Assembly: GCA_002284855.1 (NCBI GenBank)
Contig: CP015603.1
Span: forward strand, 1,116,001-1,180,000
From: Actinobacteria bacterium IMCC25003
GTDB taxonomy: Bacteria > Actinomycetota > Actinomycetes > Nanopelagicales > Nanopelagicaceae
Direction: 5' to 3'
DNA: 64,000 bases
Positions 12,757 through 49,353 of the stretch are shown piece by piece. Both the position numbers and the translations under genes were made by a program. The notes beneath the pieces are model-generated. The model made no database searches. It worked only from the letters and a program-made list of their open reading frames with translations, and was not told the DNA's origin. Positions within the stretch are counted from its first letter, which is position 1; each line of letters begins with the position of its first letter.

Positions 12757-13407
12757 CTAGTTAAATATGAAAAGGCTCGCCAGTCCCGCGGCGATTAACG
12801 CGGCTGCGGCGAAGATTGATTTGGTCTTTCCGAGGCGCTGCGGCAGGCCATTGATACCGCTCTGTTGATCTTGGTCCATATCTTTGATGACGTTGATGAA
12901 GTGAGCGGCCATACCGAGAAGTGCTCCCCCAAGCCACATCCATGTGGGAGGTGTGATCTCTTTCGATATGGCCGTGCATGAAGGAAGAGCGGCGAATGCG
13001 ATGGCAAATGGAAGTGGTGAAGCGGGCGTGAATTTAAAGTAGAAGTTATAGGCAAGGCCGAATGCGATGCCGAGCATATAGACCAAGCCACCTTTGATGC
13101 CGAGCGGGCCGGCAAGGTTTGCTAGAAAGGAAAATGGAGTCATGAAGTAGATCCATGTACGAAGTTGGTTTGGTGTGATCAAACCTGCGACGAGTGGTTT
13201 ATTTGTACGGTGATGTCGTAAGTCATCTTCGTAGTCATAGAGATCGTTGGTCCAGCCAACAACGAGTTGGCCTGTAAAGATTCCGAAAGCGATGACGTAG
13301 GCGGGGCCTTCCCACCAGTAGTAATTGGCAAAGAAGAAGCCGATGGTGGTGACAATAAGTGTGGGGCCAAAGTGACAGGCTTTGCGCAGGCCGTTGAAGG
13401 TGTTGAT
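12757..13407 (-). CDS. UbiA-family prenyltransferase, apparently starting at ATC
   Basis: Integral membrane prenyltransferase, about 216 residues, seven or more hydrophobic segments. NDLYDYEDD is the first aspartate-rich Mg-diphosphate motif (N-D-x2-D-x3-D), and DMDQD is the second. The family N-terminus (x-LRKACHFGPTLIVT) begins right after the mutM stop. The frame has no ATG, GTG or TTG near there; an ATC overlaps the mutM stop as TAATC, with AAAGGAG six bases upstream. An ATG inside mutM (13494) would add 29 unrelated residues. The acceptor molecule (quinone, heme or lipid precursor) is unknown. Confidence 0.75.
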   Translation of the reverse strand: MNTFNGLRKACHFGPTLIVTTIGFFFANYYWWEGPAYVIAFGIFTGQLVVGWTNDLYDYEDDLRHHRTNKPLVAGLITPNQLRTWIYFMTPFSFLANLAGPLGIKGGLVYMLGIAFGLAYNFYFKFTPASPLPFAIAFAALPSCTAISKEITPPTWMWLGGALLGMAAHFINVIKDMDQDQQSGINGLPQRLGKTKSIFAAAALIAAGLASLFIFN

Positions 13408-46621: not shown

Positions 46622-48742
46622 CTAGCTCCAGAAGAATAAACGAGCCCAGCGCTTACTGCGTTGGATAGATAGTCGGTGACGCTCTGCCCGGATAGCAACA
46701 GCGCCATCGACATCTGTACGCAATACCTTAGCGTGTAACTGCGTCAGAGCCGAGATAGTGCTGGCTGCGGGATGTCCGTAGCTATTGCCGGTCCCGACGC
46801 TAATGACTGCAACCGAGGGCGAGAGTTCGCGCATCAAATCGAAATCTTGGTAGCGAGAACCGTGATGTGCGACTTTATAGATGTCTACGTGACCTATTTG
46901 TGAGATTAGTTGTACCTGTACTGGAGGTTCAATATCGCCGGCCGCGAAGAGAGTGAAATCCGGTGATGTAAATGTGGCAGCGATACTCGAATTGTTGGGG
47001 TTGTCATCGAACTTACCAGGTCGGGGCCACTTTACATCGATATCAATATTGTCGATACGTGCATGTGTTCCTGCGTTGATATTTCCGAACCAGATTGTTC
47101 CAACTTTGCGATGCTTCTTTGCGCCTCGCAATCCCCCGACATGATCGGCATGGATATGCGTCAGGATAAGTAACGGAATCTCATGAATACCTAATTGATG
47201 TAGACATCTATCCATCAACTGCGGGTCTGGCCCCACATCAATCACGATGCCACGATGGTGGTGGAGGTTAATGACCATTGCATCACCTTGACCAATATCG
47301 CAATTGGCAACCTGCCAATCCCCCGCAGGAAATCTCTGTAACCATGAAACGGAGATGATGAGTATCAGTAGAGCGATAGCGAATTTAGCTCGACCGAAGT
47401 AGATCAGGGCAACGATTGCAGTTGCTGCAATAAATCCATAGAGACCCGTCTTCAACGTAAATACTGGATATTGCGCAGACCATCGAGCAACCCATGCAAT
47501 CCATGCTGCGAAAGGTTTGATGAGAAGAATCAATAGAGATGAAATTGGCGAGGCTATCGGCGAAATGAGTGCAGCGATAAATCCCACGATGGTGATGGGA
47601 GTGACCGCAGGTGCTGCAAGTAAGTTGGCGATAACGCTCATAGGGCTGATGTATCCGGAAATAGCGACGATGACTGGTGCGCAGAAGACCATTGCTGCAA
47701 TAGGCGGCGCCAAAACCTTCGGTTTGATCTTCGGCGCAATTAAGAGCAGTCCTGCTGTTGCCAATACGGAGAGCGCAAAACCCGGATCTCGCGCCTGAAA
47801 GGGGTCGGCTATAACAACTGCTCCAATAGCAAAACCAAGTGCCGGAAGTGAATCTCTTCCCTGTCGAGTTCCATGTGCGAAGAGCAAGACCGCCGCCATC
47901 GCTGCAGCGCGTAATACAGATGGCGATGGACGCACAAGGGCAATGAATGCAGTGAGCGAGATGGCGGTCGCTATCAATCGATAGTTGATGCGACGGAAGA
48001 AGAATTGCATTCCCCACAAGACAAAGCTGGAAACAATGGCGAAGTTGGCACCGCTGACAGCCACCAGATGTGTCAGTCCTGATCTGCGCATATCGTTCTT
48101 AAAATCCACGCTCTGTTTGCTGACATCACCAATCACCATTCCTGGAATCAGCGCTCCACCATCCCCTGTACCTGTGGCGTTACGTAGCCCCAAACGAATC
48201 TTCGCAAGTGAACGTGCCCAGAGCGATGGTGGGGTAAGAACTTCAACGCGATGGCTGACAATCAGAAGTGCAGCAACTCGTTTTTCTTTGCTCGCTAAAA
48301 CTTTTGCATGGACTCGAATCTTCTGTCCTGGAAGTAAGCCATCAACGCTTCGAGTAGATGCAATGATGCGAACAGGTATGCGGAGTGTGAATCGTTTATC
48401 TACCTCAACGGCCTGCCCAATAAAGCTAAATGAAGTAGGCGCAAAGGCGGTACCCACGATCTTCGGTGCTACTCGCGTGGGGTCAGTCGTTACTTGAACG
48501 ACTACTCCTGTTGAGGAATTTCGATATTGATGAATGACACTTGATTGCAGCGCACCAATGCGAATGGACATCACTGATGCACCAATAAGTAAGGCGACGA
48601 TAAGTACGATAAACCGCTTCTTACCGCGAGATACCAATACAAGAAGGAGCGCAACCGCAGAGATTCTCCACGGTGCGCTCCAGCTTTGTAGTAATGCGCC
48701 AACCCAGACCGCTCCCCCAAGTGCCAGGGCGCGGCTATCGAT
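46622..48742 (-). CDS. comEC: ComEC/Rec2 DNA-uptake channel, apparently starting at ATC
   Basis: 706 residues. N-terminal membrane region, competence domain with GLTHLVAVSGANFAIVSSF (part: GLTHLVAVSGAN), and a C-terminal metallo-beta-lactamase domain with THIHADHVGG and HHGSRYQD. It carries single-stranded DNA through the membrane in transformation. Coding continues upstream of the first near-cognate start (TTG 48637) for 35 residues of clear membrane-type sequence up to an ATC overlapping the comEA stop (TAATC). This N-terminus (DSRALALGGAVWVGALL) fits the family. So ATC is the inferred start. Confidence 0.85.
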   Translation of the reverse strand: MDSRALALGGAVWVGALLQSWSAPWRISAVALLLVLVSRGKKRFIVLIVALLIGASVMSIRIGALQSSVIHQYRNSSTGVVVQVTTDPTRVAPKIVGTAFAPTSFSFIGQAVEVDKRFTLRIPVRIIASTRSVDGLLPGQKIRVHAKVLASKEKRVAALLIVSHRVEVLTPPSLWARSLAKIRLGLRNATGTGDGGALIPGMVIGDVSKQSVDFKNDMRRSGLTHLVAVSGANFAIVSSFVLWGMQFFFRRINYRLIATAISLTAFIALVRPSPSVLRAAAMAAVLLFAHGTRQGRDSLPALGFAIGAVVIADPFQARDPGFALSVLATAGLLLIAPKIKPKVLAPPIAAMVFCAPVIVAISGYISPMSVIANLLAAPAVTPITIVGFIAALISPIASPISSLLILLIKPFAAWIAWVARWSAQYPVFTLKTGLYGFIAATAIVALIYFGRAKFAIALLILIISVSWLQRFPAGDWQVANCDIGQGDAMVINLHHHRGIVIDVGPDPQLMDRCLHQLGIHEIPLLILTHIHADHVGGLRGAKKHRKVGTIWFGNINAGTHARIDNIDIDVKWPRPGKFDDNPNNSSIAATFTSPDFTLFAAGDIEPPVQVQLISQIGHVDIYKVAHHGSRYQDFDLMRELSPSVAVISVGTGNSYGHPAASTISALTQLHAKVLRTDVDGAVAIRAERHRLSIQRSKRWARLFFWS

Positions 48743-49353
48743 TACACGCGCAGCTTCTCTTTGAACTGTGCGAATTTGCTCTGTCCAATGCCCGGTACTT
48801 TCAAAAGATCTTCAATGGCGCTAAATGGCCCATTCGTCTTTCTAAATGCGACGATGCGATTGGCAAGCACAGGGCCGATTCCATCCAGTGATTCAAAATC
48901 TTTCACAGTTGCTCGATTAATCATGATGGGGCCGTTCTTACGAATTGCAGGTCGTGAGATTCCACCATTTCCGCTTATCGCAGCCGGATAGACATAGATC
49001 TGCTCGCCATCTTTCAGGATGCGCGCCTGATTGATATCCGAAGTGTCAGCACCTTTCTTCAAACCACCAGCGGCCTTGATTGCTTCAACAACGCGTGCGT
49101 TCAGGGGAAGCGAATACACACCTGGGTTGACGACAGCACCTGCAACATCGACCATCAAGGTCTGTGTCGAAATACTTTCGATTTCAAGTGGAGCGGGAGC
49201 TGCAACTACTTCTTGCGAGGAACCGCGCATGATAAAGAGCGCAGTGATAGCAACGACAAGGCCCGCAATAATTGCGAGCCCGCGTCTCTGTAGCGATGAG
49301 TAGTGGAGATCGCCCCACCAATTACTAATTTGAGCTAGATACTTATTTTCCAT
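48742..49353 (-). CDS. comEA: ComEA DNA-binding competence protein
   Basis: 203 residues. One membrane anchor (IIAGLVVAITALFIM), an SLBB domain (VDVAGAVVNPGVYSLP) and a C-terminal helix-hairpin-helix pair with LDGIGPVLANRIVAFRKTNG and VPGIGQSKF. It binds double-stranded DNA outside and hands it to ComEC. Its TAA overlaps the ATC start of comEC. Confidence 0.93.
   Translation of the reverse strand: MENKYLAQISNWWGDLHYSSLQRRGLAIIAGLVVAITALFIMRGSSQEVVAAPAPLEIESISTQTLMVDVAGAVVNPGVYSLPLNARVVEAIKAAGGLKKGADTSDINQARILKDGEQIYVYPAAISGNGGISRPAIRKNGPIMINRATVKDFESLDGIGPVLANRIVAFRKTNGPFSAIEDLLKVPGIGQSKFAQFKEKLRV

Follow-up and report, generated by a model that had tools for sequence, protein, structure and literature searches.

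Absence of a canonical start codon from most comEC genes of Candidatus Nanopelagicaceae and their possible translation by re-initiation at the comEA stop

The 64,000 nucleotide (nt) stretch of the Actinobacteria bacterium IMCC25003 genome analysed here, referred to as the window (GenBank assembly GCA_002284855.1, contig CP015603.1, positions 1,116,001 to 1,180,000), carries on its minus strand the competence gene comEC directly behind comEA. The comEC reading frame runs into the comEA stop codon without offering ATG, GTG or TTG (canonical starts in the following), which raises the question of where and how translation of comEC begins. Comparison with related genomes gives about an even chance to the reading that comEC is translated by coupled re-initiation at an NUA triplet overlapping the comEA stop, without a canonical start codon. 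The features of the locus are as follows.

48742..49353, minus strand: comEA, a DNA receptor with SLBB and helix-hairpin-helix domains, the gene upstream of comEC (open reading frame; Pfam HHH_3 and SLBB)
48742..48744, minus strand: comEA stop codon TAA (sequence reading)
48743..48745, minus strand: GTA overlapping the comEA stop in the comEC frame (GTAA), proposed entry site (junctions of relatives)
48740..48742, minus strand: ATC triplet, the comEC start of the original prediction, not conserved in relatives (junction comparison)
46622..48745, minus strand: comEC frame from the proposed entry triplet (Pfam Competence and Lactamase_B; coding test; structure model)
48705..48737, minus strand: predicted hairpin beginning 4 nt past the comEA stop; the 40-nt stretch behind the stop has a predicted energy of -16.3 kcal/mol (folding)
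48635..48637, minus strand: TTG, earliest canonical start in the comEC frame (open reading frame reading)

The 3′ end of comEA reads GTG TAA, and the TAA (48744-48742) shares one base with the ATC (48742-48740), so that the TAATC overlap at 48744-48740 was read correctly in the original prediction, made from the letters of the window alone. Counted from the ATC, comEC encodes 706 residues, and TTG 48637, 35 codons downstream, is the first canonical start in its frame. The frame had been described as ending exactly at the ATC; it stays open for 23 further codons upstream, to TGA 48814, again without ATG, GTG or TTG. No strong Shine-Dalgarno motif was found at comEC, where only the purine stretch AAAGAGAAG within comEA is present.

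The codons between the comEA stop and TTG 48637 were assessed at the level of sequence, conservation and predicted structure. The gene product carries the Pfam domains Competence (PF03772, 3.4e-40) and Lactamase_B (PF00753, 2.1e-08), while the match to NCBIfam TIGR00361 (ComEC_Rec2) stays under the family's own cut-off (143 versus 190 bits). In a fold search, which aligned the C-terminal domain only and left the N-terminal helices without comparison to a solved ComEC, this domain of the predicted model matched the solved Moorella ComEC domain with Z 26.5 and a root-mean-square deviation of 2.2 over 223 aligned residues. For the first 35 codons, differences at codon positions 1, 2 and 3 amounted to 0.142, 0.076 and 0.364 in 37 disjoint pairs of relatives, and D1, R3, G8, W12, G14, A15, L16, Q18 and S19 were invariant in all 93 rows of the three genera g1, g18 and g32. 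Judged by this pattern, the codons ahead of TTG 48637 are protein-coding in the comEC frame. The ComEC family has N-terminal transmembrane helices before an oligonucleotide/oligosaccharide-binding (OB) type domain, and the predicted structure, with helices at residues 4-21, 24-37 and 42-66 followed by OB-like strands at 77-162, matches this order (mean predicted local distance difference test score 75 with 17 sequences; 60-83 by block across residues 1-70). A start at TTG 48637 (residue 36) would, on this model, cost helix 1 and nearly all of helix 2. The earlier assignment of about 35 residues upstream of TTG 48637 to ComEC is thus borne out by the coding test, the invariant residues and the predicted helices. 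The same applies to the suspected annotation trap: gene finding restricted to ATG, GTG and TTG returns a truncated comEC and cuts off the first ComEC membrane helices in this freshwater lineage.

In order to survey the junction in relatives, 201 genomes were drawn from the order, 179 of which had a comEC match. In total 143 comEA-comEC junctions were collected and 135, from the family Candidatus Nanopelagicaceae, were kept. The eight dropped loci were L124-L128 (homology starting at residue 34-40, junction unaligned), L302 (wrong end), L010 (in-frame, no comEA stop) and L107 (short contig). A junction was called startless if no canonical start was present between the nearest upstream in-frame stop and the ATC position, and this was the case for 125 of the 135 junctions, although these rows come from related species and the raw counts therefore overstate independence. 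The startless rows belong to nine genera (g1 78, g18 15, g22 10, g19 9, g23 8, g25 2, and g26, g27 and g32 1 each). In every one of them comEC keeps one frame relative to the comEA stop, the position of the stop varying between -26 and +7 nt; in one row of the genus, L073, the linker is longer. The triplet overlapping the comEA stop in the comEC frame is TTA in 44, CTA in 36, GTA in 35, ATA in 7 and CTG in 3 startless rows, giving NTA in 122. Eight of the ten junctions with canonical starts have an NTGA overlap with a TGA stop at the same triplet (GTG 6, TTG 2), so the homologous triplet serves as a usual start in these eight relatives, which speaks for re-initiation; the remaining two, L092 and L117, lie in other frames with their own starts.

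Named records with a close comEC include the complete genomes of Candidatus Planktophila lacus, which is classified in Candidatus Nanopelagicaceae, Candidatus Nanopelagicales, and of strain IMCC26103, and both have the startless junction too. Among 29 named loci 26 were readable, 25 being startless in the same frame and one (L391, identical to L010) having comEA and comEC in a single frame; several of these genomes overlap the 135-junction set. Outside the family, comEA was located in six loci from other families of Actinobacteria, which showed GTGA (L023, L024 and L026), TGATG (L022), an ATG just past the comEA stop (L030) or an unclear arrangement (L027).

The evolution of the junction was followed on a quick tree with long branches, built from comEA and comEC pieces without the junction itself. 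With all 135 rows included, the tree requires 17 or more changes of junction length, and the startless rows all kept the frame. The comEA stop of g1, g18 and g32 switched between TAA and TAG 14 times with one further switch involving TGA, and TGA is thus avoided at this site in Planktophila and two related genera. For comparison, stop usage in the sampled window genome (the window and 20 further stretches, 464 kb with 436 called genes, about a third of the genome, which is a single contig of 1.35 Mb) was TAA 282, TGA 85 and TAG 69, TGA being more frequent than TAG. The binomial values for the TGA scarcity, 0.0001 and 0.0005, are rough, with the parsimony switches taken as independent. A TGA at the comEA stop would entail NTG in the comEC frame. 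Moreover, ATG or GTG at the ATC position occurs in 0 of the 93 rows of g1, g18 and g32, both codons being common further along comEC. Since the canonical or startless state changes at least four times on the tree, a single origin of startlessness is not demonstrated.

Secondary structure behind the comEA stop was evaluated by synonymous shuffling. The first 45 nt past the stop gave a mean z of -1.01, with 33 of 92 rows below -1.5, compared with mean z values from -0.38 to +0.11 and 1-11 of 79-93 rows below -1.5 in 13 other windows of comEA and comEC. By group, z at the stop was -0.91 in g1, -1.02 in g18 and g32, -0.55 in g23, g25, g26 and g27, -0.07 in g19, -0.06 in g22 and -0.47 in the six canonical rows of g20, g21 and g29. 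The contrast is imperfectly clean because signals are also found further on, in g1 (-0.51 and -0.58 at +47 and +62) and in g23, g25, g26 and g27 (-0.99 at +32). The 40 nt past the stop have a mean folding energy of -13.96 kcal/mol in g1; in the window genome, 85 gene pairs with canonical overlaps average -5.81 kcal/mol, and the junction of the window is more stable than all 85. Unlike the z-scores, these mean energies are uncorrected for amino-acid make-up. No alignment-wide RNA consensus was detected at the junction in 93 rows. In L096 and L097 (g23), a GC-rich hairpin of about 10 bp is predicted in the comEC linker past the comEA stop.

From coding of the N-terminus without a usual start, the frame lock, the TGA scarcity and the hairpin signal, all of them properties of the sequences, we infer the following mechanism by comparison alone. 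Ribosomes finishing comEA would re-initiate at the triplet overlapping its stop (NUAA or NUAG; GUAA in the window), presumably with formylmethionine at NUA, in the frame of ordinary AUGA and GUGA overlaps although the triplet is GUA, UUA, CUA or AUA. The ancestral arrangement was probably NTGA, with a GTG or TTG start overlapping TGA, and a change of the comEA stop from TGA to TAA or TAG would have turned NTG into NTA. The resulting weak and strictly coupled state would then have been kept, plausibly to hold the ComEC level low, a reason suggested by the reported toxicity of ComEC excess. In Planktophila and near relatives, the post-termination ribosome may be kept in place by the hairpin that lies immediately 3′ of the stop. 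The accessible text of PMC6135910 describes ComEA as binding DNA outside the membrane and ComEC over-production as toxic. The loop between ComEC helices 2 and 3 has a net charge of +3.0, for which reason the ComEC N-terminus is predicted to be cytosolic (positive-inside rule), as would fit a freshly started protein, the end of ComEA being predicted outside. The wider claim that most of the family expresses comEC without a start codon, the upstream stop setting site and frame and selection excluding real starts, is held a little below even chance.

A start codon near the stop is generally taken to be required for re-initiation. If true, a natural and conserved case lacking one would make the codon recognition needed by a terminating ribosome directly testable. 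The layout and frame are those of the termination-reinitiation overlaps ATGA and TGATG described in the accessible text of Huber et al. 2019 (PMC6728339), with the comEC triplet at the place of the start, but in 125 of 135 junctions this triplet is NTA (122) or CTG (3). The closest known codon use is that of an Escherichia coli recJ mutant, for which the available text reports a coupled GUA start without Shine-Dalgarno sequence, of low efficiency and helped by mutations of initiation factor 3 (IF3) (Haggerty and Lovett 1997; PMC2268962, PMC6200909), to those authors' knowledge the only demonstrated functional GUA start (PMC6200909). Like this mutant, comEC would be a coupled gene with GUA where the start would be and no strong Shine-Dalgarno sequence; unlike in the laboratory mutant, NTA at comEC is natural in most junctions of the family and includes UUA, CUA and AUA. 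In the accessible part of the open-access literature on comEC or comEA frameshifting, Planktophila ComEC and NUA starts no such case was described, and the available text of the GeneTack frame-transition survey (PMC3711429) contains no mention of 'competence' or 'comE'.

Several points weigh against re-initiation at NUA. With UUA and CUA, two bases fail to pair with the initiator anticodon, and according to the accessible text of PMC6200909 a single base separates each known natural non-AUG start from AUG. The original prediction had suggested an examination of IF3, and this protein aligns ordinarily with solved IF3s. A special initiator tRNA was considered as well and rejected: among the 37 of 40 genome tRNA matches read by ARAGORN three have the anticodon CAT and none is odd. 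A hairpin beside a start usually hinders initiation. Additionally, the hairpin signal is absent in the startless genera g19 and g22, and since it is present in g1 and in g18 and g32, the hairpin is on these data accessory in part of the family and not a condition of startlessness. Finally, where codon -2 of comEA starts with AG, AA or GA, a T at the base that would close the comEC frame was found in 0 of 20 rows versus 24 of 105 elsewhere, a weak hint that the comEC frame must stay open upstream, as frameshifting needs, and L010 (L391) has comEA and comEC in a single frame, as a fusion would allow.

The last two points belong to the rival that survives best, recoding, which is nevertheless considered unlikely. 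In this case ribosomes near the comEA stop would shift by -1 or +2 into the comEC frame without peptide release, yielding a ComEA-ComEC fusion besides free ComEA, with the hairpin as stimulator. Both re-initiation and recoding would lock the comEC frame to the comEA stop, so the frame lock without a usual start in 125 of 125 rows agrees with recoding too, as do the scarcity of NTG at the overlap triplet, the hairpin a few nt past the stop and, in all 125 startless rows, a comEC frame open over 10 nt or more ahead of the comEA stop. Some Z_ZZN tetramer lies in the usable stretch in 88 of 125 rows, the commonest being A_AAA at -33 (39 rows); however, positions vary by row, the stretch from the last comEC-frame stop to the comEA stop is free of Z_ZZN in 37 of 125 rows, a tetramer at the comEA stop or within the four codons preceding it is present in only 22 of 125, and the heptamer X_XXZ_ZZN occurs in 2 of 125. 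In L029, L061 and L062, comEC-frame stops lie 13 nt or less from the comEA stop. The fusion in L010 may be an indel error, as its comEC is broken by a frameshift further downstream. A fusion would also join a ComEA C-terminus expected outside to a ComEC N-terminus placed inside by charge and model. Compared with programmed -1 frameshifting (motif classes in the accessible text of PMC4066793), comEC shares the fixed frame and, in part of the family, has a predicted downstream hairpin, but has no shared slippery site, and the fusion conflicts with the predicted topology. If true, fusion by frameshifting would add DNA uptake to the known cases of recoding. A +2 slip (CGC to CGT, or GTG to GTA) was tried separately and rejected; it fits the window and not the rows ending CGCATC, CAGGTC, AGGATT and similar.

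The use of the ATC itself as an AUC start codon, as originally proposed, is rated as improbable. Its position is occupied by 21 different codons among the 93 rows of g1, g18 and g32, so that a conserved ATC start is not upheld. In the genus, which has 78 startless rows, the overlap triplet is followed by ATT in 29, GTT in 12, ATC in 8, ACT in 7, ACC in 6, GGC in 4 and one of ten others in the rest; ATC, ATT or ATA are thus found in 38 of 78, whereas the remaining rows have GTT, ACC, ACT, GGC and others, the codons seen at this position also including AAA and GAT. Absence of the pattern in relatives had been named as the finding that would count against it, and here the two parts separate, the startless state being general (125 of 135) and the ATC not conserved. 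AUU and AUC starts seem to be present in recX, menA, UbiA and infC of the lineage, a point in favour of an AUC start at comEC, but recX with the same geometry has ATT in 26 of 29 loci, and comEC has no strong Shine-Dalgarno sequence. Most Planktophila rows offer a further candidate, an ATT at codon -11; it was rejected on account of comEC-frame stops that separate this ATT from the junction in L005, L029 and L061-L069.

A start further downstream, at TTG 48637 or at the ATG of an MSxR motif near residue 57-61, with the upstream codons untranslated, appears very unlikely: many rows of the genus do have an ATG at residues 57-61, but residues 1-34 are under strong constraint at the protein level and contain the first predicted helices, the MSxR start is missing from some genera, and L089, L101, L104, L109 and L113 lack a canonical start up to residue 61. 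A sequencing or assembly error in the window, where a single base decides between ATC and ATG, has a negligible probability, as 125 of 135 assemblies share the startless junction and so do complete genomes from other strains.

Returning to the lineage as a whole, the genome sample was searched for further startless genes. Among 128 neighbouring same-strand pairs open through the upstream stop in this frame, three were without a canonical start, namely comEC, the second crcB and recX. With 3 of 128 pairs in the sampled third, and with the comEC case recurring in 125 of 135 junctions of the family, the observation exceeds chance. A codon-bias scan for startless genes was insensitive, comEC scoring only 1.3 in its first 35 codons, and the counts are therefore lower bounds. 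A comparison with genome G041 covered 321 genes, and for 28 of them the first 90 codons contained no canonical start common to both genomes; menA and UbiA were non-canonical, and the others resembled indels, paralogues, region edges or differing canonical starts. comEC and recX escape this test through a chance downstream codon present in both genomes.

The recX gene (L182:12835-13341, plus strand; relatives L190-L219) overlaps the recA stop with an ATT (TAATT) in 26 of the 29 loci of the genus that could be read, mostly with ATG, GTG and TTG lacking as far as residue 24 or further (an ATG is nearby in L207, L211 and L219), and looks like a conserved AUU start. comEC is unlike recX in that recX keeps its ATT in the same geometry and comEC keeps no codon. 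In menA (L177:5884-6735, minus strand; L250-L279), an ATT behind GGAGG is found in 9 of 30 loci, its own included, and an ATG stands in this column in 19 of the other 21, a pattern of start codon turnover within the genus. The second of the tandem crcB genes (L174:17562-17909, plus strand) has no ATG, GTG or TTG near its N-terminus; its close relatives L221-L225 have CTG, TTG or ATG soon after the upstream stop, and two also an upstream GTG. Non-AUG starts of infC are known from other bacteria, and infC of this genome reads as ATC behind AGGAG (L139:1999-2001, minus strand).

For infC, AUU autoregulation is cited in the accessible text of PMC2268962, and infC, recX, menA and UbiA of the lineage resemble this type of AUU or AUC start. 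comEC does not, since the codon is conserved in recX and is replaced by ATG in relatives at the same column of menA and UbiA, neither of which holds for comEC. Overall, AUU and AUC starts seem to be used now and then in the lineage, as judged from recX, menA, UbiA and infC and not from comEC. The earlier suggestion of routine ATC starts is too strong, the cases found being comEC, recX, menA, UbiA, the second crcB and infC among the 436 genes, as a lower bound.

The second ATC start proposed for the window, that of UbiA, was compared in 30 loci taken from 68 genomes with a match, 28 of them readable.

13405..13407, minus strand: ATC start candidate of UbiA overlapping the upstream TAA, a separate phenomenon, with AGGAG at 13418-13414 (relatives)

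The UbiA ATC lies behind a perfect Shine-Dalgarno sequence (AGGAG) with six bases between, and its column holds ATG, GTG or TTG in 25 of the 28 readable relatives, the other three having one within three codons; the best-matching relative, L141, has ATG. The UbiA ATC is most simply read as a recent change from ATG to ATC behind the perfect Shine-Dalgarno sequence. UbiA and comEC, originally taken as two cases of one pattern, thus fall apart, UbiA having relatives with ATG and comEC being startless family-wide and tied to the comEA stop. The more distant UbiA relatives within the genus (G015, G004, G024, G089 and others) are located in open frames of about 500 amino acids, possibly fused to another domain.

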